Source: a virus. From it: a DNA stretch of 24,989 nt. Below the pieces are notes generated by a model. It was not told the origin of the DNA. It did no database searches and saw only the letters and a program-made list of their open reading frames with translations. Below, one piece after another: positions 336 through 24,758 of the stretch (within the stretch, counting starts at the first letter, position 1; each line of letters starts with the position of its first letter). A program made the translations under genes and the position numbers. The DNA lies in the IMG/VR virus record IMGVR_UViG_3300050030_000064, positions 1 to 24,989 of that record, one strand, 5' to 3'.

Positions 336-779
336 TTAGCTAATATATTCTATTTCAACACCGCCTTCGGTTAATATTATTAATGAAATTTTCCAATTTT
401 CGCCCCATCTTTCGTCATTTAAATTTGGTTTATTTTCACAAATAAGTTTTTTTATGCCAGCATTAACAATAGCACCTGCGCAATTACAACAAGGAAAATA
501 ATTAACATACATATCACAATTTTTTGTTTTCTGACCATTTTTTGCTGCATTAGCAATTGCATTAATTTCTCCGTGAACAGTAAATAAATATTTTAAGGGA
601 CGTTCATGCCGTTCAAGTATATCTTCATTAACTTTGGCAGGAAATCCATTAAATCCCATTGATATTGGATTTTTATCTTCTGGATTTACTATTATTGCAG
701 CAACTTTAGTCGATTTATCTTTACTCCAACCAGCAATATATTTTGCTAATTCACCAAACCTTATTTTCCATTTATCCAT
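336..779 (-). CDS. Deoxycytidylate (dCMP) deaminase
   Basis: The 147-residue product matches the cytidine/deoxycytidylate deaminase fold. The HGE motif at residues 69-71 gives one zinc ligand (His69) and the proton shuttle (Glu71), and PCCNC at 96-100 gives zinc cysteines Cys97 and Cys100. These enzymes convert dCMP to dUMP, feeding dTTP synthesis, and are typical of T4-like phages, where they help supply nucleotides for phage DNA replication. Length is normal for a phage dCMP deaminase. The start overlaps the end of the upstream GIY-YIG gene by 19 nt, and the next gene starts 2 nt after the TAA, so translation is probably coupled in an operon. A related ComE-type or other zinc deaminase is less likely. 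The T4 counterpart is gene cd. Confidence 0.9.
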   Translation of the reverse strand: MDKWKIRFGELAKYIAGWSKDKSTKVAAIIVNPEDKNPISMGFNGFPAKVNEDILERHERPLKYLFTVHGEINAIANAAKNGQKTKNCDMYVNYFPCCNCAGAIVNAGIKKLICENKPNLNDERWGENWKISLIILTEGGVEIEYIS

Positions 780-1567
780 AATAATCTATTTTCTTTTAAT
801 TTTTCATTAATCATATGTACACAAATATCATTAAGCCATCCATTCCTATATGATGCAGTAAATTCTTTTAGATAATTTCTTTTAAATTCTGCTTTTGTTC
901 TGCACAATAATGCTTTATTTTTACACAATTCAATGGTATATTTAAATTTTCCACCTCTATTGCTTTTTAACATCAAATTAATTTCATCATGCCAATTATT
1001 TTTTAATGATGAAGAATATGCGCCCCGATATTTCTTTTCAAATTCACTTCTCGTTTTGCACTTTTTTGCTGCTTCAATACATTTTTCTTTAATCCAAATT
1101 AATGTATTACCACCAATACCACCAGTTTTTGCAACATTTAATATATTCCAACCATTATTTTTATATTCTTCAACATATTCACCTTCTAATTTTGATGCTA
1201 TTTCAACATCAATATAATCAGTTAATTGCTTTCTTATTGGAACATATCCTGTTTTCTTAATATGTTTTGTTACTTGGTCAGTATTACGGCAATCTCTACC
1301 ATTTTGTCTTTCAATAATATTATGCGTTAAACCAATATAAACACATTTATCTTCAATAAATTCATATGAATATACACATCTTTTATATTTACTACCATAT
1401 AATATCATATGTGCTGTTATTACATTCATCCAACCATTTCTGTATGCAATAACATTTGCTGATGGTGATTTTTCTTTAAATTCTTTTTTAATTAGATATT
1501 TTAATGCTTCAATAGCACAATTATCATATGTCCAATAGCCATTTGGTTTTCTTATTTTAGCTTCCAT
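761..1567 (-). CDS. GIY-YIG endonuclease with three helical repeats (putative homing endonuclease)
   Basis: 268 residues. A GIY-YIG nuclease core spans about residues 64-153: VYSYEF as the 'GIY' strand, YIG at 77-79, Arg87, and the Glu-rich helix with candidate catalytic Glu128 or Glu130, ending in a Gly-rich loop. The core is flanked by one repeat on the N side (about 11-54) and two on the C side (about 157-260). The repeat pattern is W-T-x-E-x-C...E-A-L-K-Y...F...A-Y...N-G-W-x-x-E-I-x-x-H-M. The same repeat fills the 601-residue protein at 9403-11208. The gene overlaps both neighbours (19 nt downstream, 16 nt upstream), so it sits in an otherwise compact operon. I infer a free-standing homing endonuclease in which the repeats supply DNA recognition; activity is not shown by sequence alone. 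Confidence 0.8.
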   Translation of the reverse strand: MEAKIRKPNGYWTYDNCAIEALKYLIKKEFKEKSPSANVIAYRNGWMNVITAHMILYGSKYKRCVYSYEFIEDKCVYIGLTHNIIERQNGRDCRNTDQVTKHIKKTGYVPIRKQLTDYIDVEIASKLEGEYVEEYKNNGWNILNVAKTGGIGGNTLIWIKEKCIEAAKKCKTRSEFEKKYRGAYSSSLKNNWHDEINLMLKSNRGGKFKYTIELCKNKALLCRTKAEFKRNYLKEFTASYRNGWLNDICVHMINEKLKENRLLWINGK

Positions 1568-1773
1568 AGTCTGTTCTTTGATAAATTTTTTGCTCTTTTA
1601 ACCAGTTTTTCCAATGGTTCGAAATCAAATTCTGCATTATCATAATTAGCAAATTCTTCTACATCAATTTTTGCCAATTCGTCAACAATTTTCAAAGATT
1701 CTTTAAGAAGTGTTGCTTTTTCATGGTCTTCAGCGTATTGTTTTCGCTGTTCTTCAGTAATTGGTGTTGCCAT
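1552..1773 (-). CDS. Small acidic helical protein, unknown function
   Basis: 73 residues, mostly charged and predicted helical (EEQRKQYAEDHEKATLLKE at the N-terminus, then KLVKRAKNLSKNRLWKLK at the basic C-terminus). No motif is recognised. It starts 1 nt after the stop of the four-TM membrane protein and its end overlaps the start of the GIY-YIG gene by 16 nt, so it lies in the same transcription unit. The acidic-to-basic charge asymmetry could suit a small binding or adaptor protein, but no function is inferred. Confidence 0.7.
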   Translation of the reverse strand: MATPITEEQRKQYAEDHEKATLLKESLKIVDELAKIDVEEFANYDNAEFDFEPLEKLVKRAKNLSKNRLWKLK

Positions 1774-2962: not shown

Positions 2963-5900
2963 TTATTCTAATGACATTGAGGAAATACCGTCTTCATCCA
3001 AAGTTACATTAATCAAGTAATCTGGATTGATTTCATGCACCTGTTCGATGACCAAAGTTTTCTTCATACGTAATTTTATCATTTGTAGTATCTCAATAAA
3101 TTCTTCAACACTACCTTCCACGTCCAGTTTACCCATAACTTCATCAAGTAAGAACATCATTGGTTTGGCTTTTACATTGATTTGATTCAATGCAAACTTC
3201 AGTACAACACTTGCAAACGTTCTTTCTTTTCCGCTTGCTGAGATACAATCAATAATTGATGTAGGTCTGTTATTATATGCCAATTTTGGTCGTAGGTCAT
3301 CGGCATCGAGCCATACTTTAAACGGTGCAACAGACAAGATGTTCTCTAACGTCAAATTAATCTTAGGCAAAATATAATTGCTCAATATTTGTTTTGGAAT
3401 ACCTTCACGATGAACACACTTCTTATATAGTGTCATAATTGAATCTTGATATTCTTGTATCTTGAATTCAGCAATTAGCAATTCTAAATTTTTTATTTTT
3501 ATCGAATTTTCACCAATAGCTGTTTTTCTCAGATATACGTCTTCAGTAAATTCCTTTTCTTGACCTTCAAGTATAAGAATTTTTTCTTTTGCTGCGGTAA
3601 TACCTTTTTCGATGTTATGATTTTCTTCAATTTGCAATAAGCTATTATCATAACTGTCAATTTTTTGCTGAAGTATCGAAACTTGCAATTCGACATTCTG
3701 AATCTTTATTGGAATCTGGTCAAGTTCTGCTTGAAGTTCTTTACGTCTGTTGACATCGTTCATTTCATTGGTCAGAGTACCAATTTCTTTAAGTACTTCT
3801 TCCATTGCAAGAGCATCAGACTGAATAATTGTTTCAATACCAGCAATTTCAATTTTTTTAGCATTAATAACATCTTGAAATACCTTTTTATCGGCATTCT
3901 CTTTTGTTTTAATTTCTCCAGCAATTCTGAACATTTCTTTTTCCTTTTCAGCAATTGACTCTTCGATGTGTTTTAAGTGGTCGGGAACTATTTCTTGTTT
4001 ACATAATGGACAAATAGGATTTTCAGCATCTTTTCCTGCTTTTAATATCAATGCTTCCTTTTTTAGCGCAGCACCATCTTGCTTTAATCTGAAAATTTCA
4101 CCGTTGACAATTTCGATAGCATGTTCATTGTCTCTCATGACCTGCTCCAAAGTTTTGATTTCTAATTTTCTTCCATGCTCAATTGTTTTATGTAAATCTT
4201 TCTTTTCAAGCAATAGTTTCAGTCTTTCGGCATCATAAGTTTCTCTCAAACTTGCTATACTTGTTTCAAGAATGCCCTTACGTTGCTTGTGTTGCTTGAT
4301 ACTTTCGTTATGAATACCAATACTCTTCTTGACATCATCTACGCTTAAACCGTAAATTTCGGGGTCTATTTTAAATAATTTCTTTGTTAATGTTTCTACA
4401 TAGGTCCTACCTGTCTTAATTTTGTCCTGTACTTCGGGAATTTTAACTGTTTCGCAATCCAGAACTTCTGCATCAAGTAAAACATTATATTGAGTTAATG
4501 CCCGGATTTGTTCAGTAGACCTTTCTATATCGCAAGTAACTCTGGATTTTTCATTAGCTTTCTTCTGATATGCCTTTAGACCTTCGAGTTTCTTATCGAA
4601 GATATCCAAACCACTGTCATATAATAAAGAATCGATGAAAACAGCCATATCATTTGACAATATACGATTAAGCGTATCTGATGTTGTCATAACAACACGC
4701 ATGAAATTATCGTAACTACCAATAATAGCATCAATCTTTTCCTGTGTTTTATTTCTACGGTCTTCATCAAGTTTTTCCAATGCTGTATTAGCATCCATTA
4801 CTTCATCAGGATTTGAAAGTACGTAATAACTTAACGTAGTTGGCGCACCATTAATTTCACCCGATTTTGTACGAGTAATTTCAGTTTTTTTCTTAATACC
4901 GTAATATTCGCCATTGGCTTCCAATACAATATACGCATCACAATAATTTGCACCATTTCTGTTGTTGACAAAGCGTGAATCACCATACTTCATACGACTT
5001 TCGGTTTCCAATGCCTTGCCAAAAAGTACGTATGTTATGAGTTTCATTATTGTTGTCTTACCCGCAGTGTTTATTCCTGTAATCTGAAACAAGCCATCCA
5101 TATTACGCCAATCAATCTCAAGTTCATGATATGACATGAAGTTTGTGCCGCCAAATTTAATTATGTTCCATTCAATGTTTGAAATACCATCAACAGTAAT
5201 ATCTCTTGATATTTCTACGTCCAATGCAATAATATCGTCAATGAGTTGTTTGTCAGTGCCAATTTTTTCAAGATATTCACGAAATATTTCATGCTGAACA
5301 GCTTCATCCGTAATACTTTCCAACGTAACATTTTCATTTACGTCAATTTTATCAGACTCAATAAATTCATTTTTATGAGAAATAATTATGCTTTTATGTT
5401 TAGATTTAACATATTCGACTAATTTTCTTTCATTGTCTTTGGTTCTTGTCTGCGGAAGTGTGCCCCAGACAAACCTGATTCTCATATGCTTGGTGGGATT
5501 TAATATCTCGAAATCCAAGTCATCAAAATCAGTAAATGGAGTGATTTTGACGTTTTTGAATGACCAACTACTTTTAATTGAAATTAAGTCCGCTACTTTA
5601 TTCTCTACATCCCATAGTAAGTATCCGTGAAAGTTATCATCACCCTCAGTAACATCTTGTGCTATTAATGACCCACAATATGCTTTTGTTTGATGTTTAT
5701 CCAAGAATTGCATTCTATGTATGTCGCCAAAGAACGATAAATCGCCCTTGAAGTCTGAGAGTTTGTAATATGCTTTGCTTTTCATTTCAAAGCCTGTTGT
5801 AGATATACAGCCACCCACAGGGTCATGAAAAAGGTCAATAAAAGTAAATCCACTCTTACCTCTTTCAGCATCTATTTTTTTACCTTCTTTAGTTTTCCAC

Positions 5901-6307
5901 GGATTGTTCTTTTGGTCGCCATGATGCCAAACCGCCCACATAATGTCATCATCAATATGCATGCCTGTTCTGTCGTAATAAATAACATTGGGATTGTTCA
6001 GTGTTTTTACAATTGCACGTATAGAGTCTACACGCTTAAGATTTTTCTTTCTACAGTCATGATTTCCTCTCGTTATTCTGACAGGAGCAACCATTGCCAG
6101 TGCATTGAGTAAATCATGTGCCATAATTAGCTGTTCACCTTGTAAATCAAGATAATCGTGGACCAAATCACCAACAATTACTATTCTATCGGGTTTTTGT
6201 TTTCTAAGGGATTCTATTAGATTTAAAAATACTTCGTCATATTCTTCATTTCGTACAGGTACTTTTCTGATATGGATGTCAGCTAAATGAGCAATCTTTT
6301 TTATCAT
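2963..6307 (-). CDS. Fused SbcD-SbcC (Mre11-Rad50; T4 gp47-gp46-like) recombination nuclease/ATPase
   Basis: A single 1114-residue frame carries both subunits of the Mre11/Rad50 complex. Residues 1-about 270 are the nuclease: D10/H12, GD at 46-47, GNHD at 81-84, HH at 128-129 and GDIH at 194-197. Residues about 380-1114 are the SMC-like ATPase: Walker A at 411-419 (GINTAGKTT), two coiled-coil arms, zinc hook CPLC at 766-769, the signature region SASGKER at 1023-1029, Walker B at 1050-1056 ending in DE, and D-loop GKLD at 1059-1062. In T4 and E. coli these are separate genes. The complex processes double-strand ends for recombination-dependent replication and host DNA degradation. No stop or frameshift lies at the junction (about residues 270-380). 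A host-type promoter candidate lies 29-62 nt upstream of the ATG at 6307. Confidence 0.95.
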   Translation of the reverse strand: MIKKIAHLADIHIRKVPVRNEEYDEVFLNLIESLRKQKPDRIVIVGDLVHDYLDLQGEQLIMAHDLLNALAMVAPVRITRGNHDCRKKNLKRVDSIRAIVKTLNNPNVIYYDRTGMHIDDDIMWAVWHHGDQKNNPWKTKEGKKIDAERGKSGFTFIDLFHDPVGGCISTTGFEMKSKAYYKLSDFKGDLSFFGDIHRMQFLDKHQTKAYCGSLIAQDVTEGDDNFHGYLLWDVENKVADLISIKSSWSFKNVKITPFTDFDDLDFEILNPTKHMRIRFVWGTLPQTRTKDNERKLVEYVKSKHKSIIISHKNEFIESDKIDVNENVTLESITDEAVQHEIFREYLEKIGTDKQLIDDIIALDVEISRDITVDGISNIEWNIIKFGGTNFMSYHELEIDWRNMDGLFQITGINTAGKTTIMKLITYVLFGKALETESRMKYGDSRFVNNRNGANYCDAYIVLEANGEYYGIKKKTEITRTKSGEINGAPTTLSYYVLSNPDEVMDANTALEKLDEDRRNKTQEKIDAIIGSYDNFMRVVMTTSDTLNRILSNDMAVFIDSLLYDSGLDIFDKKLEGLKAYQKKANEKSRVTCDIERSTEQIRALTQYNVLLDAEVLDCETVKIPEVQDKIKTGRTYVETLTKKLFKIDPEIYGLSVDDVKKSIGIHNESIKQHKQRKGILETSIASLRETYDAERLKLLLEKKDLHKTIEHGRKLEIKTLEQVMRDNEHAIEIVNGEIFRLKQDGAALKKEALILKAGKDAENPICPLCKQEIVPDHLKHIEESIAEKEKEMFRIAGEIKTKENADKKVFQDVINAKKIEIAGIETIIQSDALAMEEVLKEIGTLTNEMNDVNRRKELQAELDQIPIKIQNVELQVSILQQKIDSYDNSLLQIEENHNIEKGITAAKEKILILEGQEKEFTEDVYLRKTAIGENSIKIKNLELLIAEFKIQEYQDSIMTLYKKCVHREGIPKQILSNYILPKINLTLENILSVAPFKVWLDADDLRPKLAYNNRPTSIIDCISASGKERTFASVVLKFALNQINVKAKPMMFLLDEVMGKLDVEGSVEEFIEILQMIKLRMKKTLVIEQVHEINPDYLINVTLDEDGISSMSLE

Positions 6308-6373: not shown

Positions 6374-7120
6374 TTATATTTTCTCTATAATCCACGAATT
6401 ACTTAATTTATTTCTTTTTATTTCATATTTTTTCAACAGTCTATAAAATGTTCTTAAATTCATATTTATTTTTTTTGCGGCAATTTTAATGGTAGACGAT
6501 GTATTTAATGCTTTAAGCATTGATGCAACCCTTTGAAATTCTAAATTAAATTCAACATTATTAACTTTTCTCAATATTGTACTACCGCCATAATTTTTAT
6601 TAAATAATATGCCAGTTCCATTATCTAATCTACCAAAATAATTAATAAACACTTGTTCAATATGATATGCATCGATTTCACTAATATTTTCAATCAACTT
6701 TGCACTACAAAAATCATTTGTTGATTTTAACTCATTAATATATTCCACTAAATTAATGTTTCTATTATTCATATCAGATATTCTACCATTTTTGCCTTTA
6801 CCAAAATATATTGGTTCGTAATATAAATGAAAATTACCAACTTTATTGTATATCTTTTTTCTCATATTATAATAAGCATAAACATAATAATTATTAATTG
6901 CGTGATTATTGTCAATTTTATCAATAATTATGGCATCTTCAATTTTCACTTCATTAATATAATTAATGTCAGTAATTTTAATTTTATAATTTTCTAATAA
7001 TGCTTCCTCAATCATATCATTCATACTAACCTCTTGGTTTTCATTTTTAGATAAAATTAATCTAATTTCTTCAAGTTTATTAAATAAACCATCTGATAGT
7101 TCATATACAATTTTTTTCAT
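6374..7120 (-). CDS. GIY-YIG family protein with N-terminal ribbon-helix-helix-like and C-terminal HTH regions
   Basis: 248 residues. The middle holds a GIY-YIG-like core: YVYAY at 79-83, YFGKG at 105-109, Arg113, and a helix with candidate catalytic Glu155 (HIEQVF), then a NYGG loop near 176-179. Residues 1-45 look like a ribbon-helix-helix segment (a short strand, then helices ending SMNDMIEEALLENY). Residues 210-231 look like a helix-turn-helix (IKIAAKKINMNLRTFYRLLKK, broken here as IKIAAKKINM and NLRTFYRLLKK). It differs from the other GIY-YIG genes here in having no WTKExC repeats. It has its own AGTATTTATA box 13 nt upstream. The gene sits between the recombination gene and the divergent Hsp20 gene. 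A free-standing homing endonuclease is most likely. Confidence 0.75.
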   Translation of the reverse strand: MKKIVYELSDGLFNKLEEIRLILSKNENQEVSMNDMIEEALLENYKIKITDINYINEVKIEDAIIIDKIDNNHAINNYYVYAYYNMRKKIYNKVGNFHLYYEPIYFGKGKNGRISDMNNRNINLVEYINELKSTNDFCSAKLIENISEIDAYHIEQVFINYFGRLDNGTGILFNKNYGGSTILRKVNNVEFNLEFQRVASMLKALNTSSTIKIAAKKINMNLRTFYRLLKKYEIKRNKLSNSWIIEKI

Positions 7121-7244: not shown

Positions 7245-7658
7245 ATGAAAATTATGTTACCCATTAGACCAAGTTTATTAATTACCAATATTTTTGATGA
7301 TATTTTTGACGTGAATCCATTTAAAGACCCGACAATTCAATGCCCGGTCCATGACGTTATTGAAAACGACAAAGAATTTATTATCGAAGTGATGTTAGCG
7401 GGGATAAAGAAAGAAGATGTCACTGTTAAAGTTGATAAAGACGTATTGAAAATCAAAGCAGTTCGTAAGGAAGTTAAAGACTTGAAATACAATCGTAAAG
7501 AATCGTTCACAGGGACATATAAAAGATTATTTGTTTTGTCAGAATTGGCTGATGTTGAAAATATTGGTGCTTCTTTTGAAGACGGAGTGTTAAAGGTTAC
7601 TGTGCCTAAACTCGAAAAAGAACCTGCACCTACAACGAAAGTTATTGAGATTAAGTAA
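7245..7658 (+). CDS. Small heat shock protein, Hsp20/alpha-crystallin family
   Basis: 137 residues, the usual length of a bacterial small heat shock protein. The alpha-crystallin domain covers about residues 35-125, with the pattern PVHDVIENDKEFIIEVMLAG for the first strands and the family signature GVLKVTVPK near residue 113. The C-terminus ends in the VIEIK tail that supplies the conserved I-x-I oligomerisation motif. These proteins hold unfolding proteins in an ATP-independent way; T4-like cyanophages also carry them, possibly for virion assembly. It is the only plus-strand gene in the window, is divergent from the GIY-YIG gene, and ends at a strong intrinsic terminator facing the convergent sigma-factor gene. 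This isolation suggests independent regulation. The second Met (residue 4) is an alternative start. Confidence 0.93.
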   Translation: MKIMLPIRPSLLITNIFDDIFDVNPFKDPTIQCPVHDVIENDKEFIIEVMLAGIKKEDVTVKVDKDVLKIKAVRKEVKDLKYNRKESFTGTYKRLFVLSELADVENIGASFEDGVLKVTVPKLEKEPAPTTKVIEIK

Positions 7659-7683: not shown

Positions 7684-7712
7684 AAGCGGTCACGAATTGT
7701 GACTGCTTTTTT
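7684..7712 (+). terminator. Intrinsic terminator of hsp20
   Basis: The stem AAGCGGTCAC / GTGACTGCTT (one G-T wobble) has a 5-nt loop and is followed by a run of T (7707-7712). It begins 26 nt after the Hsp20 stop and separates it from the convergent sigma-factor gene. On the minus strand no T-run follows the stem, so it is mainly a plus-strand terminator. Confidence 0.85.
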
Positions 7713-8361
7713 ATTCAAATACATCCTCTGGTAAAGATTTTTTAAGTTTAGTCTTGATGTAGTTAATTTTATTACTTACTGTACTACTTGTTAACTGAAA
7801 TTCGCTACCAATTTCCTTATAATCATAACCTTGAACATATTTCATATCAAGCAATGCATAATCGGATGGAGATATTTGTGACGAAATAAAACTGACTGCA
7901 TTAGCATTCTCGAAAGTACATGATGTTGAATTTACTGCAGTACCGTTATTTGAAACACTACACGTGCCATTACCGTTAGCATTATTTACAGTAAATGTAT
8001 TGTTGAAATAGCCACCTGCATTATAATTGCAGGAAGTCAACCTAATGTTTGCATTTGCAGGTAAAATGGTAGTACAGCACGTTGCTGTACATCGCCATTT
8101 ATCAATCATATAGTTTTTGCAGATACTCAGAACCCAAGATTTAAATTTAGATTTGTGTTCCTGGAATTCCTTGATGTTCATGAAGACTTTAATCAGTACT
8201 TCTGATACATCATCATCAATGTCGTAATACGTAGGATATTTACTGAGTATAAAATCTTTTACTATTTTTCTATAGCGTTTATAGAGTGTTTCTTGTGCTG
8301 TTTGATTCCCATCCAAAATATTTTGAATTAGAACTGTATCTTCTTGTTCCTTGCTTATCAT
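7711..8361 (-). CDS. ECF-like RNA polymerase sigma factor with an Asn/Cys-rich insert
   Basis: 216 residues from the ATG at 8361. A frame extension to 8394 exists but adds only an atypical hydrophobic stretch. Residues about 5-90 match sigma-70 region 2 of ECF factors (ILDGNQTAQETLYKRY, then DIDDDVSEVLIKVF, then FKSWVLSICKNYMIDKWR). Residues about 162-208 match region 4 (YALLDMKYVQGYDYKEIG, then an HTH with TSSTVSNKINYIKTKLKK). Between them, residues 91-160 are a low-complexity segment rich in Asn, Thr, Ser and Cys (Cys91, 95, 96, 111, 134, 148), unlike a normal ECF linker. The gene overlaps the primase end by 83 nt, so the two are probably translated together. It would redirect host RNA polymerase to phage promoters, a role T4 gives to gp55. 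Confidence 0.85.
   Translation of the reverse strand: MISKEQEDTVLIQNILDGNQTAQETLYKRYRKIVKDFILSKYPTYYDIDDDVSEVLIKVFMNIKEFQEHKSKFKSWVLSICKNYMIDKWRCTATCCTTILPANANIRLTSCNYNAGGYFNNTFTVNNANGNGTCSVSNNGTAVNSTSCTFENANAVSFISSQISPSDYALLDMKYVQGYDYKEIGSEFQLTSSTVSNKINYIKTKLKKSLPEDVFE
8015..8033. repeat. Inverted repeat inside the sigma-factor insert
   Basis: Six-base arms CCTGCA / TGCAGG with a 7-nt loop lie inside the DNA encoding the Asn/Cys-rich insert of the sigma factor. Together with the palindrome at 8072-8090 this marks the insert as structurally unusual DNA. Confidence 0.45.
8072..8090. repeat. Perfect 8-bp inverted repeat at the start of the sigma-factor insert
   Basis: Arms GTACAGCA / TGCTGTAC with a 3-nt loop sit exactly where the protein leaves conserved region 2 (after DKWR) and enters the low-complexity insert. 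The hairpin would form in the mRNA and might influence translation, or be a scar of an insertion event. Confidence 0.5.
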
Positions 8362-9358
8362 AGGGTTTTGCCAACTTATTAATAAAGTAATCATCCACAG
8401 TTAAACCCCTTGCACTACGTAGACTTTTAATTACTTCGCTAATACCTCTTTTTTTACGAAGTTCGTCCATGTCTTTCTCAAATGGAATTTTAACTATTTT
8501 GACCCTTTCTTCACAGCCTACATAAATATCGTGCAACATGTAATAAAGTTCAATTGCATTTTTGTAGGCATCCGGGTCTAACAATACAACTACATCAGGT
8601 TTCATTTCTTTCAGTTTTAAAAATAATGTGGTTGATATCGTCTTACCCAACATCGGAATGATGTTAACGGGAAATGACAGCATTTCAAACGCACCTTCAA
8701 CAAGGTATACAGTAGAGTCCCAATTTACAAACCCCTCATTAAAGATAATCCTGTCCTTATCGGACTTAGGGTTATCATAGGGGTGTTTTCTTTTATTTGC
8801 AATATCATAATTTCTTCCAACAAAGTAATTTACTTCGCCATTTTTATCATATGACGGTATAATTATCCGTTTTTCATATTTACCTGTAGTACAAAAACCA
8901 AGCCGATATTTTAAAATTATATCTCTTGATATCATTCTGTCATTAATCATGTAGTTATATGCATCAAAATGGTCTTGATTTAAAGCATCCATTTGACTAA
9001 ATAAAATCATTTCTTCAGGAAGTTTTACAGCAACATATTCCTTTTCATCACCTTCTTCATTCTCATAGTCGGGATAAATTGCCGCATATGATTTATAAAG
9101 GTCATAATCAATAGATGTTCCAAACATCCACACAAGTTTTTTCAGCGAACCACTAAACTTAGGTTCATCACACTTCCAACAACGAAATTTTCTTCTTGCC
9201 GTATTGATTTCGAGATTGAACTTTCCATCGGGATAAGCCAGACCCTCTCTTTCCTGACAATGAGGACAGTTAACCTGTATCTGCTCAGATTGTTGAAAGC
9301 CTTTAACATCGACAAAGATGTTCTGGACTATAGCGTGAAACTCTTGCCCCCGAATCAT
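8279..9358 (-). CDS. DNA primase with zinc-binding and TOPRIM domains
   Basis: 359 residues from the ATG at 9358. An in-frame upstream ATG (9388) lies inside the promoter and encodes a non-homologous leader, so it was rejected. A zinc-ribbon is visible: C31-x2-C34 (CPHC) and C60-x2-C63 (CWKC). The TOPRIM core has EG at 221-222 (LVEGAFEML) and the metal-binding DPD at 261-263 (VVVLLDPDAY). Bacterial DnaG and phage primases use this pair to recognise template and make RNA primers. It is shorter than DnaG (about 600 residues) and lacks a visible helicase-binding domain, as expected for a phage primase acting with a separate helicase. The end overlaps the sigma-factor start by 83 nt. The start codon is only 5 nt after a TATATTTG promoter element, implying an almost leaderless mRNA. 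Confidence 0.85.
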   Translation of the reverse strand: MIRGQEFHAIVQNIFVDVKGFQQSEQIQVNCPHCQEREGLAYPDGKFNLEINTARRKFRCWKCDEPKFSGSLKKLVWMFGTSIDYDLYKSYAAIYPDYENEEGDEKEYVAVKLPEEMILFSQMDALNQDHFDAYNYMINDRMISRDIILKYRLGFCTTGKYEKRIIIPSYDKNGEVNYFVGRNYDIANKRKHPYDNPKSDKDRIIFNEGFVNWDSTVYLVEGAFEMLSFPVNIIPMLGKTISTTLFLKLKEMKPDVVVLLDPDAYKNAIELYYMLHDIYVGCEERVKIVKIPFEKDMDELRKKRGISEVIKSLRSARGLTVDDYFINKLAKPYDKQGTRRYSSNSKYFGWESNSTRNTL

Positions 9359-9361
9359 AAC

Positions 9362-9394
9362 GACAAATATAAAAAAAATTTGCCACAAAACAAA
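9362..9394. repeat. 33-bp direct repeat, copy A (upstream of primase)
   Basis: It matches 11212-11244 at 32 of 33 positions, in the same orientation, 1850 bp apart. The segment holds the promoter core and the T-run. The two copies bracket the ten-repeat GIY-YIG gene exactly and are each placed just before a start codon. Confidence 0.85.
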
Positions 9395-9402: not shown

Positions 9403-11208
9403 TTACATATGCGAAGTAATTTCAATATAGAAACCATTTCTATCAGCAAAAGCAACGGCACTACTCGAATTTCTCCGAAAATCTACTTTTCTTTTATATT
9501 TTAATGCTTCTTCTTGGCATTTTTCTTTAGTCCAATAATTTCTTTTAAACTCAAAATGTGAGGTAATTTCATCAAGCCAACCATTTTTTTTAATGGCACT
9601 ATATGCACCAGAACAACCTCTCATAAAATCCACTTTTCTTTTATATTTTAATGCTTCTTCTTGGCATTTTTCTTTAGTCCAATAATTTCTTTTAAACTCA
9701 AAATGTGAGGTAATTTCATCAAGCCAACCATTTTTTTTAATGGCACTATATGCACCAGAACAACCTCTCATAAAATCCACTTTTCTTTTATATTTTAATG
9801 CTTCTTCTTGGCATCTTTTTTTTGTCCAATAATTAATAGGTTTAGTTATATATTTCATATGCATAGTAATTTCATCGTACCAACCATTTCTTTTAGCTGA
9901 TGCGGCAACACCGGGATGATTTTCCCAAAATTCTTTTCTTGACTTACATGTTAGTGCGATTTCACGGCACTTTTTTTTATCATATATATTTGTTGACATG
10001 TGCCCCGTTATTTCTTTATGCCATTTATGATTACAAACAGCACTATATGCTTTAGGACTATTCGTATAGAAATCTTTTCTTGTTTTATATTTTAATGCTT
10101 CCTGCCTACACATTTCAAATGTCCAAACCACCAGACCACCGCCCGTTTCGCCACCTCTTTTAATATTTAACATATTCCATCCATTCTCACGATATTTTTT
10201 TATGTACTCTTTTTCTAAATTAGCTGCATCATCAATGGGAATAAATTCTGTTAATTGTTTTATAGTGGGTTGTAATTTTGTTTCATTTATGTGTTTGGTA
10301 ACACCATCTTTTTTATTTGTTTTTCTACATAAATCTCTTTTTTTTAAATTATACGTTAAACCAATATAGGCAAAATTATCTGAAAATTCATACGCATATA
10401 CGCACCTAAATACCCAATTTCCAATTCTTTTAAAATGTGTGGTAATTTCATCAAGCCATCCATTTAAAGATGCCGAAGAATATGCGGATGAATGATTCTG
10501 ATAAAATTCTTTTCTTGTTTTACATTCTAATGCTTCTTCATAACATCTTTCTTTATTCCAATAATTAAGTGGTTTATTTCCTTCTGTCATGTGTGAACAC
10601 ACGACATCAAGTAAATTATTTTTTTGCGCATAATCATAGGCTCGATGCGAACCTTTAATAAAATCTGCTCTTGTATTGTATTTTAACGCTACATTTTGGC
10701 ATTTTTCTATTGTCCAATTTCTACTAACAAAATGAGAATTAATTTCATCATACCACCCATATTCTCTTGCAGCCCAATATGCACTCTTTTCATTTATAAT
10801 AAATTCATTTTTTGTTTTATACTTCAATGCAACCTCATAACACCTTTCTTTAGTCCAATATCCACTTGGTTTTTTTATTGGTATCATGTGAGCACATATT
10901 TCATCTAAAATACCCTTTCTTAATCCCCAATTATATGCACCATGACTGTTAGTACAAAATTCTGACCTTGATGTATATTTTAAGGCTTCAATATGACAGG
11001 TTTCTTTAGTCCAATGAATAGCTTTCGGTCTTAATCTTATCATATGTGAACAAATCTCATCATTCCATCCATTTTTAATTGATAATCGAGCTGCAGTTTT
11101 AGAGTATTGGCTAAATTCTTTTCTCGTGTTATATTTAAGTGCTTCTTCATGGCACTTTTCCTTAGTCCAATAATTTGGTGATTTACGTTTTGAGCATATT
11201 TTATTCAT
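9403..11208 (-). CDS. GIY-YIG endonuclease with ten helical repeats (putative homing endonuclease)
   Basis: 601 residues from the ATG at 11208; an earlier in-frame ATG (11262) lies in the terminator/promoter segment and was rejected. Five repeats of about 45-52 residues (1-260) precede a GIY-YIG core (about 266-358: VYAYEF, YIG at 281-283, Arg291, Glu332/Glu334, Gly-rich loop), and five more follow (about 360-601). Each repeat reads roughly W-T-K-E-x-C-x-E-E-A-L-K-Y-K-T-R-x-x-F, a variable stretch, then A-Y-x-x-A-x-x-N-G-W-x-D-E-I-x-x-H-M. Repeats 8 and 9 are identical over their cores because of a 147-bp DNA duplication. The same module occurs three times in the protein at 761-1567. I infer a homing endonuclease with array-like DNA-binding modules. 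It lies between the coiled-coil gene and the primase and has its own copy of the primase promoter. Confidence 0.85.
   Translation of the reverse strand: MNKICSKRKSPNYWTKEKCHEEALKYNTRKEFSQYSKTAARLSIKNGWNDEICSHMIRLRPKAIHWTKETCHIEALKYTSRSEFCTNSHGAYNWGLRKGILDEICAHMIPIKKPSGYWTKERCYEVALKYKTKNEFIINEKSAYWAAREYGWYDEINSHFVSRNWTIEKCQNVALKYNTRADFIKGSHRAYDYAQKNNLLDVVCSHMTEGNKPLNYWNKERCYEEALECKTRKEFYQNHSSAYSSASLNGWLDEITTHFKRIGNWVFRCVYAYEFSDNFAYIGLTYNLKKRDLCRKTNKKDGVTKHINETKLQPTIKQLTEFIPIDDAANLEKEYIKKYRENGWNMLNIKRGGETGGGLVVWTFEMCRQEALKYKTRKDFYTNSPKAYSAVCNHKWHKEITGHMSTNIYDKKKCREIALTCKSRKEFWENHPGVAASAKRNGWYDEITMHMKYITKPINYWTKKRCQEEALKYKRKVDFMRGCSGAYSAIKKNGWLDEITSHFEFKRNYWTKEKCQEEALKYKRKVDFMRGCSGAYSAIKKNGWLDEITSHFEFKRNYWTKEKCQEEALKYKRKVDFRRNSSSAVAFADRNGFYIEITSHM
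9485..9814. repeat. In-frame 147-bp tandem duplication within the endonuclease gene
   Basis: The sequence repeats exactly with a period of 147 bp (49 codons) over 330 bp, about 2.2 copies. Identity stops at 9485 on one side and 9814 on the other. Absence of any substitution between copies implies a recent event or ongoing homogenisation. Confidence 0.95.
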
Positions 11209-11211
11209 ACT

Positions 11212-11244
11212 GACAAATATAAAAAAAATTTGCCTCAAAACAAA
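11212..11244. repeat. 33-bp direct repeat, copy B (upstream of the ten-repeat endonuclease)
   Basis: 32 of 33 positions match 9362-9394. This copy is continuous with the left arm of an intrinsic terminator that the primase-side copy lacks, so copy B sits in the older context at the end of the preceding gene. Confidence 0.85.
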
Positions 11245-11246
11245 GG
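11214..11246 (-). promoter_or_regulatory. Bacteroidota-type promoter candidate for the ten-repeat endonuclease
   Basis: On the minus strand CCTTTG is followed by 19 nt and then TATATTTG, with the ATG at 11208 just 5 nt downstream. The -33 box lies in the loop/stem of the terminator hairpin, so terminator and promoter share DNA. Confidence 0.55.
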
Positions 11247-11259
11247 TTTTAAGGCAAAT
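11221..11259 (-). terminator. Intrinsic terminator downstream of the coiled-coil gene
   Basis: On the minus strand a 14-position stem (one mismatch; arms ATTTGCCT-T-AAAAC and GTTTT-G-AGGCAAAT) closes a 4-nt loop and is followed by eight T. It starts 18 nt after the stop of the gene at 11278. It is the strongest hairpin in the window and overlaps the next promoter. Confidence 0.85.
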
Positions 11260-11277
11260 CATATATATTAATCGAAA

Positions 11278-11820
11278 TTAGAATCTTTTTTCTTTCTGTA
11301 AGAACGGAAAATATACTATTAATCTGTTCAAGAAAGCAGGTGGAACAATTACAAAATTTGGTGTTCCATAAGGAGTAAGTCCAGGATTTTTCATATAATT
11401 TGACTGAATTTCATGGAATATTGTCAATATACCATTTTTCAGTTCACCATCATTCTGAACACCCGCACCGCTTTTAACACGTTGATTTTCATTAAGCATT
11501 TTTTGAAAATCAACTTTCATTACTTCTAATTCGCCTTTAAGTAATTGGTTTTCACTTGTAAGTGCAGCTACTTGTTCTTGAAGCCATATATCGCTACCCG
11601 TTGGTTCTTCTTCTACTTCAAGAAGGTCTTCTTTAGGTTTTGGTGTTAGAGTCAAATCAACATCACTGTCACTTAAGAGTTCTTTAACTACTTCTTTTGC
11701 TTTAATATCTCTTTCTTCTGCTGGAGTAAGTACTTTTTCTGGTACTACTTCTTTCTTGACAGGAGTAACTTTCTTTACTCCCTTTGCCAAATTAACTAAT
11801 TGCTTGGTACTTTTTGCCAT
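11278..11820 (-). CDS. Coiled-coil protein, unknown function
   Basis: 180 residues. The N-terminal third is Lys/Val/Pro/Glu-rich and probably disordered (KGVKKVTPVKKEVVPEKVL). Residues about 78-118 form a clear heptad-like coiled coil (WLQEQVAALTSENQLLKGEL and onward). The C-terminal about 60 residues are more globular, ending in a hydrophobic-aromatic segment (FLNRLIVYFPFLQKEKRF). No family is recognised. An AGTATTTATA box lies 24 nt before the ATG and a strong terminator follows, so it appears to be a single-gene unit. A scaffold, virion-internal or oligomeric accessory protein is conceivable; the promoter class it shares with virion genes slightly favours late expression. Confidence 0.75.
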   Translation of the reverse strand: MAKSTKQLVNLAKGVKKVTPVKKEVVPEKVLTPAEERDIKAKEVVKELLSDSDVDLTLTPKPKEDLLEVEEEPTGSDIWLQEQVAALTSENQLLKGELEVMKVDFQKMLNENQRVKSGAGVQNDGELKNGILTIFHEIQSNYMKNPGLTPYGTPNFVIVPPAFLNRLIVYFPFLQKEKRF

Positions 11821-13477: not shown

Positions 13478-13786
13478 TTATATAAATACATTTCCGTTTG
13501 CTTTAAGAAATACTATTGTCTCTTCGATTTTTCGGCACACTTCTTTAAATGCGACTTCTTCAGATATGGATAAGTCGAACCATTCACCTTCCTTATTAAA
13601 ATGGCTGTATCTACGTTGTAATGCATGCTCAATTTTATTGGCATGTTCGGTATGATATGTATCAATGAGTTTTAATGGCGATGCGTTGCCAGTCTGCAAT
13701 TGTTGCAATCTTTTGGTTGGATGCTTCGAAATTCCTATTTTATAATACCCGTTTTCTAATGATTGAATTAGATAAATATACTTCAT
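13478..13786 (-). CDS. Small GIY-YIG (T5orf172/Mug113-like) nuclease domain protein
   Basis: 102 residues from the ATG at 13786. A frame extension to 13855 lies wholly inside the upstream gene and was rejected. The motif string is YIYLI at 3-7, YKIGIS at 15-20, Arg26, QLQTGN near 29-34, and a helix with the catalytic-type Glu53 (KIEHAL), then GEWFDL near 67-72. This is the T5orf172/Mug113 branch of GIY-YIG nucleases. The ATG overlaps the TAA of the RuvC-like gene (TAATG), which implies coupled translation. That coupling, plus small size and lack of a DNA-binding module, suggests a housekeeping nuclease working with the RuvC-like enzyme rather than a homing endonuclease, though the latter is not excluded. 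Confidence 0.8.
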   Translation of the reverse strand: MKYIYLIQSLENGYYKIGISKHPTKRLQQLQTGNASPLKLIDTYHTEHANKIEHALQRRYSHFNKEGEWFDLSISEEVAFKEVCRKIEETIVFLKANGNVFI

Positions 13787-14415
13787 TACCTCAAAATACC
13801 CAAAGTCTTCAGTCCGGCAATACCTACACAATATGAGTCGCTCATATCGAAACACATGTCTTTCAATGTGTTATTCTTGGTATAAAACCATTCAATTTGG
13901 GGTTCTAATTTAGCAACTTTTTCCCAGATATACAACTTTTTTTCTTTTAAATATTTTTCTGGAAAGCTAACTGTCTCAATTACTTCTATTTCGCCTGTTT
14001 TTCTGTTCTTTTTTCTGGTAACATGAATTAATTCGGGACAAAACAATTTTCGACTGTCGTACACACTTATTTTAGTTGGCATTATATCGAATACTTCCCA
14101 AAGAATATACCTGGCAATACCATTGAATCCCAATAGCAATGCCGTTGTATTAATATTTTTCGGAGTGTTTGAAAGTGGTGCTTCAACAAACACATGTATG
14201 ATTTCACCGTTTAATTCTTGCTCAATTCTTTCTTTATATGCAATACAATATTCTTTAAAGACTTCGGCTTTTTGAATGTCTCTATCATCAATGGCAGTTT
14301 CTTTATCGGTTTTTAACAAAAGATGTTTGAGTTCGATTAATTTGCCGTTGGCACTCCAAAGCGCACAGCCAACATTAGTTGTTGAAACATCTAAAGACCA
14401 AATGTATTTTTCCAT
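13786..14415 (-). CDS. RuvC-like (RNase H fold) Holliday-junction resolvase
   Basis: 209 residues. The first strand reads WSLDVSTTNVGCAL with Asp9, the second acidic site is Glu78 (HVFVEAP), and the C-terminal helix holds D186, D190 and D193 (DMSD), matching the Asp-Glu-Asp-Asp order and final D-x-x-D spacing of RuvC. These enzymes cut four-way junctions during recombination and packaging; the T4 equivalent role is gp49 (a different fold). Residues around 130-160 form a Lys/Arg/Glu-rich insert compared with E. coli RuvC (173 residues). The gene starts 2 nt after the ribbon-helix-helix-like gene and overlaps the following GIY-YIG gene by 1 nt, forming a three-gene operon. Confidence 0.8.
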   Translation of the reverse strand: MEKYIWSLDVSTTNVGCALWSANGKLIELKHLLLKTDKETAIDDRDIQKAEVFKEYCIAYKERIEQELNGEIIHVFVEAPLSNTPKNINTTALLLGFNGIARYILWEVFDIMPTKISVYDSRKLFCPELIHVTRKKNRKTGEIEVIETVSFPEKYLKEKKLYIWEKVAKLEPQIEWFYTKNNTLKDMCFDMSDSYCVGIAGLKTLGILR

Positions 14416-24050: not shown

Positions 24051-24758
24051 CTACAAAACCCTTTCACATATAATATTCTCAATATCATTATATTGATGGT
24101 ATGAGATTCTCACCAAATCAATATTGTTTTCAGCTAAAAAATTATTTTTTATTTTGTCGTTTTGTTGAATTACATCAAAGCCATCTTTTCCACCAAAAGC
24201 ATCAACAACTTCAAAATGTTGCCTACCATCATATTCAATTATCAAATTTTGGTTGGGCAGAAAAAAATCAAATGGAAGTTTTCTTTTTTTCCCAACACAA
24301 TGTTGAAACGTTTTTTCTCTAACAAACAAAATATTTTTTTCGCACAGCACTTTTCCAATTTTTTCTTCACCCTTTGATTCTTTACAAATAGGGCAACCCT
24401 GTTTTTTTGATAAATGATTGTTTGGTGTTACACTAAAATCGCCATGCAATTTACATGTAATAATTACGTGTTTTTGAGAACTAACATAATTGGTTTTGTT
24501 ATATTCGAATTTATCGCCAAATAATTCTATTGATTTTTTTATGAATTCGTCATTTGTTTTATTATTTAATCCTGCACATTTTTGACAACCACTGCCATAT
24601 AAATGGTCGTGTGGTTTTTGATAAAAAATGCCGTGTTCGGGACAAATTATGTTAATTTTATTTCTCGCAGTTACATATACACTATTAGAGTAATCATATT
24701 TATTTTTATGAATACTTTTTGCTCTTCTAATAAACTCATCTGTTGATAACTTTTTCAT
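24051..24758 (-). CDS. EDxHD-type (Vsr-like) free-standing homing endonuclease with zinc-finger repeats
   Basis: 235 residues. Two DUF723-like zinc-binding repeats come first: C39-x2-H42 with C58-x2-C61, and C102-x2-H105 with C122-x2-C125, each following a (D/N)EFI(K/R)(K/R)... helix. The C-terminal part (about 130-235) is a PD-(D/E)XK/Vsr-like nuclease: DFFLPNQNLIIEYDGRQHFE with D164, E175, D177 and H181, then an N-D-K helix and a final LVRISY strand. Enzymes of this layout are free-standing homing endonucleases known from phages. It is inserted among virion genes, 3 nt after the upstream structural gene. It is the only gene here that ends in TAG, which hints at a separate origin. Confidence 0.85.
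   Translation of the reverse strand: MKKLSTDEFIRRAKSIHKNKYDYSNSVYVTARNKINIICPEHGIFYQKPHDHLYGSGCQKCAGLNNKTNDEFIKKSIELFGDKFEYNKTNYVSSQKHVIITCKLHGDFSVTPNNHLSKKQGCPICKESKGEEKIGKVLCEKNILFVREKTFQHCVGKKRKLPFDFFLPNQNLIIEYDGRQHFEVVDAFGGKDGFDVIQQNDKIKNNFLAENNIDLVRISYHQYNDIENIICERVL

Follow-up and report, generated by a model that had tools for sequence, protein, structure and literature searches.

Repeated beads joined to a nuclease have been described in the T5orf172 homing endonucleases of ICP1-like and other phages, where the beads are zinc fingers of the CapR, DUF723 and related types (PMC10448857); the beads-on-a-string principle is therefore known. In those arrays, intragenic deletions and recombination alter the number of repeats, and the genes mark the boundaries of exchange between phages (PMC10448857). 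A GIY-YIG core, insertion beside conserved phage genes and a beads-on-a-string layout are likewise features of I-TevI and the Seg nucleases of phage T4 (PMC1564403, PMC2988022).

The gene described here belongs to a jumbo phage, a large virus of bacteria, and lies in a window of 24,989 nucleotides (the whole of the stretch analyzed, positions 1 to 24,989 of IMG/VR record IMGVR_UViG_3300050030_000064). It resembles the T5orf172 genes in having a GIY-YIG-superfamily nuclease, repeated beads (which bind DNA in T5orf172) and a repeat number that changes by recombination. However, T5orf172 systems have zinc-finger repeats and a nuclease described at one terminus, whereas the module in the window is predicted to be helical and contains no CXXC motif (one Cys is conserved at position 6 and another partly conserved at position 40), the nuclease can stand anywhere in an array of up to ten modules, and it is only weakly PF01541-like. 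No T5orf172, DUF723 or DUF4379 match was found in the window gene or its paralogue. Elsewhere in the window, an open reading frame (ORF) at 24051-24758 encodes a further homing-type nuclease, in which zinc-ribbon-like repeats (DUF4379/DUF723-like) precede a nuclease domain that matches the homing-endonuclease PHROGs 559 and 9084.

With I-TevI and Seg, the gene shares the three features listed above, but its modules lack a NUMOD match, its arrays are N-terminal or two-sided, and they are built of a single module type in tandem. Twenty-one three-module segments returned no NUMOD among the 25 of 34 Pfam families listed, at E values up to 10, and hhalign comparison of the module with four NUMOD1-like segments (few sequences) gave a probability of 0.5%. 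TALE and zinc-finger nuclease arrays, in which a repeated framework with variable positions also sits beside a nuclease, provide an analogy only: there is no homology and no known code, and the modules of the window gene are helical units of ~48 residues with linkers. PHROG 20046, which has no function in its library, takes in both genes of the window (E values of 1.7e-116 and 1.2e-34) and is matched by 79/80 isolated modules, but its 302-position profile does not separate the module from the nuclease. The module, the two-sided arrays and the site-linked residues appear to be new; we found no description of them in a literature search covering mostly open-access papers. With a probability of about 0.8, we consider the gene to be a free-standing homing endonuclease whose flanking module arrays bind DNA and define its target.

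Ten modules around a GIY-YIG core

The gene (9403-11208, minus strand, as are all of its parts listed below) encodes a 601-aa protein with five modules, a GIY-YIG nuclease and five more modules. Although the longest open frame spans 9403-11262, translation probably begins with the ATG at 11208, given the promoter-like element GCAAATTTTTTTTATATTTG directly upstream of it at 11214-11233 (minus strand). A second copy of this element is found at 9364-9383 (minus strand), directly upstream of the primase ATG; both are identical terminator-then-promoter elements placed a few bases before a start codon. GCAAATTTTTTTTATATTTG resembles the TAnnTTTG box of Bacteroidetes, which suggests a host from this phylum.

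A profile built from the modules of the protein detects exactly ten of them, at 77-88 bits each, in agreement with an earlier note on this DNA that had described five modules on either side of the core. The first five start at residues 14, 66, 118, 165 and 217 (module 1, 11041-11169; module 2, 10885-11013; module 3, 10729-10857; module 4, 10588-10716; module 5, 10432-10560). They are followed by the GIY-YIG core at residues 269-343 (10180-10404) and by modules starting at residues 362, 409, 461, 510 and 559 (module 6, 9997-10125; module 7, 9856-9984; module 8, 9700-9828; module 9, 9553-9681; module 10, 9406-9534). At the DNA level, a 57-nt unit is present in ten copies. The symmetry stressed in the earlier note holds for this gene but is incidental, since layouts in the family extend from 0-nuclease-5 to 10-nuclease-0.

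In a set of 206 unique modules, the framework reads W-T-K-E-x-C-x-x-E-A-L-K-Y-x-[TS]-R-x-E-F-x-x-x-S-x-x-A-Y-x-x-A-x-K-N-G-W-L-D-E-I-C-x-H-M, and the most variable of its 43 positions are 28, 24, 31, 20 and 17, which bears out the earlier observation that variation clusters after the central Phe. The same variable stripe leads in pairwise comparison of modules. AlphaFold2 models of three modules (pLDDT 89) and of a single module (pLDDT 84) show four short helices in each, at about residues 3-10, 16-22, 24-32 and 36-39, with the stripe on predicted helices 2 and 3. The relative orientation of neighboring modules is not fixed in the three-module model (pTM 0.40). Modules are positively charged (mean net charge, +2.2), and the arrays of the window protein sum to a net charge of +36.

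Sequence comparison of the module with Pfam, NCBIfam and PDB sequences yielded no convincing match, and its assignment to a known family in these databases was rejected. Fold searches with the three-module and single-module models likewise found no convincing match in the PDB, only weak ones (YqeY, Z score of 2.7), which do not show a new fold; in a viral structure library, they returned members of the module's own family. In the comparison with helix-turn-helix domains, the four short predicted helices (pLDDT 84-89) matched no solved PDB domain.

The nuclease core matches PF01541 with 24.2 bits, against a curated cutoff of 22.6 bits (18.9 bits in a scan of the whole protein), and shows weak profile matches to the structures of T4 EndoII and UvrC. 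Its Tyr, Arg, Glu and Asn residues of the catalytic type are intact and nearly invariant across relatives. The profile match and these residues together point to membership in the GIY-YIG nuclease superfamily.

Array length and domain partners in the family

Relatives were sought with the module consensus, as the family-wide alignment is too poor in conserved stretches for degenerate patterns. Module arrays were found in 81 ORFs with 351 modules (counting duplicate loci, and before the synteny search), including those of Vibrio schizotequatroviruses, Rhizobium phages and Burkholderia phages BcepSauron and BcepSaruman. With the patterns used, 84,980 cellular species genomes yielded four loci only, and the sole match in 395 genomes of one phylum was a locus already known; the module family is therefore mainly viral. 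Relatives carry one to ten modules, either flanking the nuclease or confined to one side of it; the nuclease can be N-terminal (0-5), internal (5-5, 2-5, 4-3, 2-7) or C-terminal (3-0, 5-0, 10-0). This confirms, family-wide, that module number differs between copies, as had been noted for the paralogue in the window, which indeed has three modules (1 + 2) around its core.

Changes in array length can be seen between close relatives. Modules 8 and 9 of the window gene, near-exact duplicates of one another, are the product of a recent tandem duplication of a 147-bp unit (two units, 98% identical, at 9472-9765, minus strand). Contig L004, which comes from the same virus (99.99% identity over 7,584 bp and 99.4% beyond the repeat), lacks exactly one such unit, in frame, giving 5+4 modules; this could be real variation or an assembly collapse of the near-identical units. 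The nearest relative at the same site has 5+3 modules. In L029 and L037, the nucleases are 99% identical and the arrays comprise five and four modules, respectively. The second module of L037 is a chimera joined within the common S-K-S-A-Y stretch, which indicates a product of internal recombination relative to an L029-like array. An assembly artifact is excluded for this pair by the divergence of the differing modules and by the chimeric module at the junction.

The arrays are also joined to a superfamily 2 helicase (L050) and to a different homing-endonuclease domain (L062 and L063; PHROG 3339, E value of 7.6e-10), and all three kinds of partner, the GIY-YIG domain included, act on DNA. The helicase ORF (L050:3435-5756) has six C-terminal modules and no nuclease, and represents either a genuine fusion or read-through of a decayed nuclease gene. 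In L062:551-2053 and L063:4824-6326, two modules precede the unrelated homing-endonuclease domain, which carries an IEYDGxxxH motif.

Insertion sites and the variable stripe

The window gene occupies the interval between g180, a conserved gene (11281-11820, minus strand), and the DNA primase gene (8282-9358, minus strand), whose start codon marks this insertion site. Many viral contigs, of up to 365 kb, are syntenic here, with the gene order g79, RuvC-like, T5orf172, exonuclease, g180, primase, sigma factor, Hsp20, SbcDC, membrane protein, s73 and dCMP deaminase. Several of these genes have features of their own. The small T5orf172/MUG113 gene adjoining the RuvC-like resolvase (13478-13855) is kept in nearly all relatives and thus probably belongs to the core genes, not the mobile ones. 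The phage sigma factor gene (7711-8394), whose start overlaps the end of the primase gene, encodes a protein with an unusual low-complexity insert, rich in T, N, C and S, that separates regions 2 and 4. The Hsp20-like small heat-shock gene (7245-7658), present in most syntenic relatives, is the only clear plus-strand gene here. SbcD-like phosphoesterase and SbcC-like ATPase are fused in one 1114-aa polypeptide (2963-6307). A 248-aa gene at 6374-7120, with a GIY-YIG-like start (VYAYYN...IYFGKG) and C-terminal helix-turn-helix matches, is found in L069, L085 and L092 and was undetected in most relatives; given this patchy distribution, it is perhaps a further mobile nuclease gene.

The g180-primase site holds a module-array nuclease in the window and in L004, L078, L088, L089, L099, L107, L110 and L127, and a remnant of one or two modules in L083, L085, L092 and L116. 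In most relatives it is empty, often consisting of about 70-100 bp with a terminator hairpin and a promoter. The insert typically ends at the primase start codon or within a few bases of it; in the window, the nuclease gene is followed by the second copy of the promoter element and then by the primase gene. The 40-bp direct repeat (92% identity) flanking the gene was considered as a target-site duplication and rejected, being the terminator/promoter element that empty sites also contain once. The L069 record (G005, 299 kb), the closest relative of the window, is without a gene at the primase site; it has at least three other module-array ORFs and a single module within an ORF of 533 aa.

At the second site, the paralogous gene (764-1567, minus strand, given as 761-1567 in the earlier note; 1 + 2 modules) lies between s73, a conserved small gene upstream (1555-1773, minus strand), whose last codons overlap its start, and the downstream dCMP deaminase gene (339-779, minus strand), whose start codon overlaps its end. 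The window and L098 carry an insert at this site, which is empty in the other genomes; in most empty relatives, s73 and the deaminase gene lie within about 30 bp of each other. Other members of the family adjoin genes for UvsX/exonuclease, helicase, NrdA, DNA methyltransferase, RNA ligase and SbcCD; in Rhizobium phages, they flank the primase gene on both sides and also adjoin that for dCMP deaminase. Comparison of the loci at the two sites of the window shows precise insertion in some genomes and an intact empty site in close relatives. Because precise sites beside conserved genes are found occupied, with remnants, and empty, the pattern is that of free-standing homing genes.

On a primase tree of 42 rows, 8 changes are required to account for the insert, and the closest primases to that of the window, from L097 and L098, both stand next to an empty site. 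The nuclease genes of the window and L121 are 80% identical at the nucleotide level along 1.6 kb and have their five N-terminal modules in common, against 69.5-71.5% identity for the flanking genes. The remaining same-site pairs all have a primase more conserved than the nuclease; the gene is therefore not simply slow-evolving. These figures indicate a gene history different from that of the flanks, i.e., horizontal spread, with window/L121 as the one clear pair.

Among module pairs from different sites, identity at the nine stripe positions stays at 0.15-0.18 as framework identity runs from 0.3 to 0.8, and framework and stripe therefore evolve independently. Pairs with at least 6 of 9 stripe identities are 24 times commoner within a site (21/945) than between sites (26/27,565); module pairs are not independent, and a Fisher value for this enrichment is not a true probability. 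A link between module sequence and insertion site, which had been set beforehand as a test, emerged from 2000 shuffles of the site labels: 18 matching pairs were observed, against a mean of 1.7 and a maximum of 12, and 10 against a mean of 1.4 and a maximum of 9 after removal of the three closest pairs. The matches sit at corresponding positions in the arrays, namely, the module that directly follows the nuclease in L089, L107 and L110 (in the L085 remnant, the first one), the first two modules in L006 and L019, and the last module before the nuclease in L018 and L049. The stripes of the window gene are shared with L088 and not with L089 or L078. The plain mean of same-site stripe identity shows a modest effect (20.7% versus 14.1% at nuclease identity of 50-60%) because it is diluted by modules that share a site but are unrelated.

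Genes at one site are partly related, and descent contributes to the shared stripes: the cores of site-2 genes are 64% identical to each other and 46-47% identical to that of the window gene. Exposed helix positions, moreover, vary in any small domain. The stripe could thus be an unconstrained surface, shared by common descent, of a protein that would still be a homing endonuclease, and some same-site pairs, such as the window and L078, have no common stripe signature. However, the stripes of L089, L107, L110 and L085 are more conserved than framework and nuclease, the reverse of the family pattern, and we regard descent as an unlikely full explanation. In the first post-nuclease module of L089, L107 and L110, 8-9 of 9 stripe positions are identical, with framework identity of 0.59-0.65 and nuclease identity of 56-61%, as would be expected of conserved contacts with a target.

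Proposed mechanism and alternatives

As a homing endonuclease, the protein would cut with its GIY-YIG domain, and its two flanking arrays of ~43-residue helical modules with short linkers would bind along the DNA in a beads-on-a-string fashion and jointly set the target. In phages without the insert, this target would be the junction where g180 meets the conserved 5' end of the primase gene; a break there, repaired with the gene-bearing genome as template, would give the empty site a copy of the gene and leave both neighbors unharmed. Specificity may reside in the exposed residues of helices 2 and 3 (module positions 17, 20, 24, 25, 28, 29, 31 and 32). Recombination between near-identical framework stretches of neighboring modules lengthens and shortens the arrays, which would change what is read. 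DNA recognition by the modules, proposed in the earlier note, is probable on indirect grounds: the DNA-acting partners, the mean charge of +2.2 and the site-linked stripe speak for it, whereas no known DNA-binding fold was matched and common descent accounts for part of the link with the site.

The same architecture might serve a phage weapon or defense protein whose array directs cleavage to the DNA of a host, a satellite or a rival phage. In phage ICP1, a chimeric nuclease with a swapped DNA-binding part is reported to act in this way (PMC8263062), and module arrays would suit a changing target. However, the genes are inserted precisely between other genes, next to conserved replication genes, and their sites also occur empty or with decayed copies, their variable residues track the insertion site, and no PADLOC defense model was matched; we therefore consider this role improbable, although the two roles are compatible with each other. 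Finally, that the modules bind RNA, protein or each other, with only the GIY-YIG domain and its immediate flanks touching DNA, would fit the failure of the module to match a known DNA-binding fold but is very improbable in view of the joining of the same modules to another homing-endonuclease domain and a DNA helicase, the net charge of +36 and the tie between variable residues and insertion site.

Within the homing-endonuclease interpretation, one may further ask whether stripe positions 17, 20, 24, 28 and 31 let every module read one fixed, short piece of DNA. We hold such collinear reading to be doubtful; under it, array length and module order would spell the target, and phages would retarget the nuclease by adding, deleting and shuffling modules on either side. 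If true, this would be a protein-only modular code distinct from those of TALEs and zinc fingers, and modules that read DNA one by one would offer a new programmable scaffold. The natural pairs of insertion site and module sequence are material for deriving a recognition rule, and this jumbo-phage clade presents the same site occupied, decayed and empty in one data set. The module is an uncharacterized, apparently zinc-free, putative DNA-recognition addition to phage homing endonucleases. Even without per-module reading, these arrays illustrate how selfish genes may change their target specificity by recombination between repeats.
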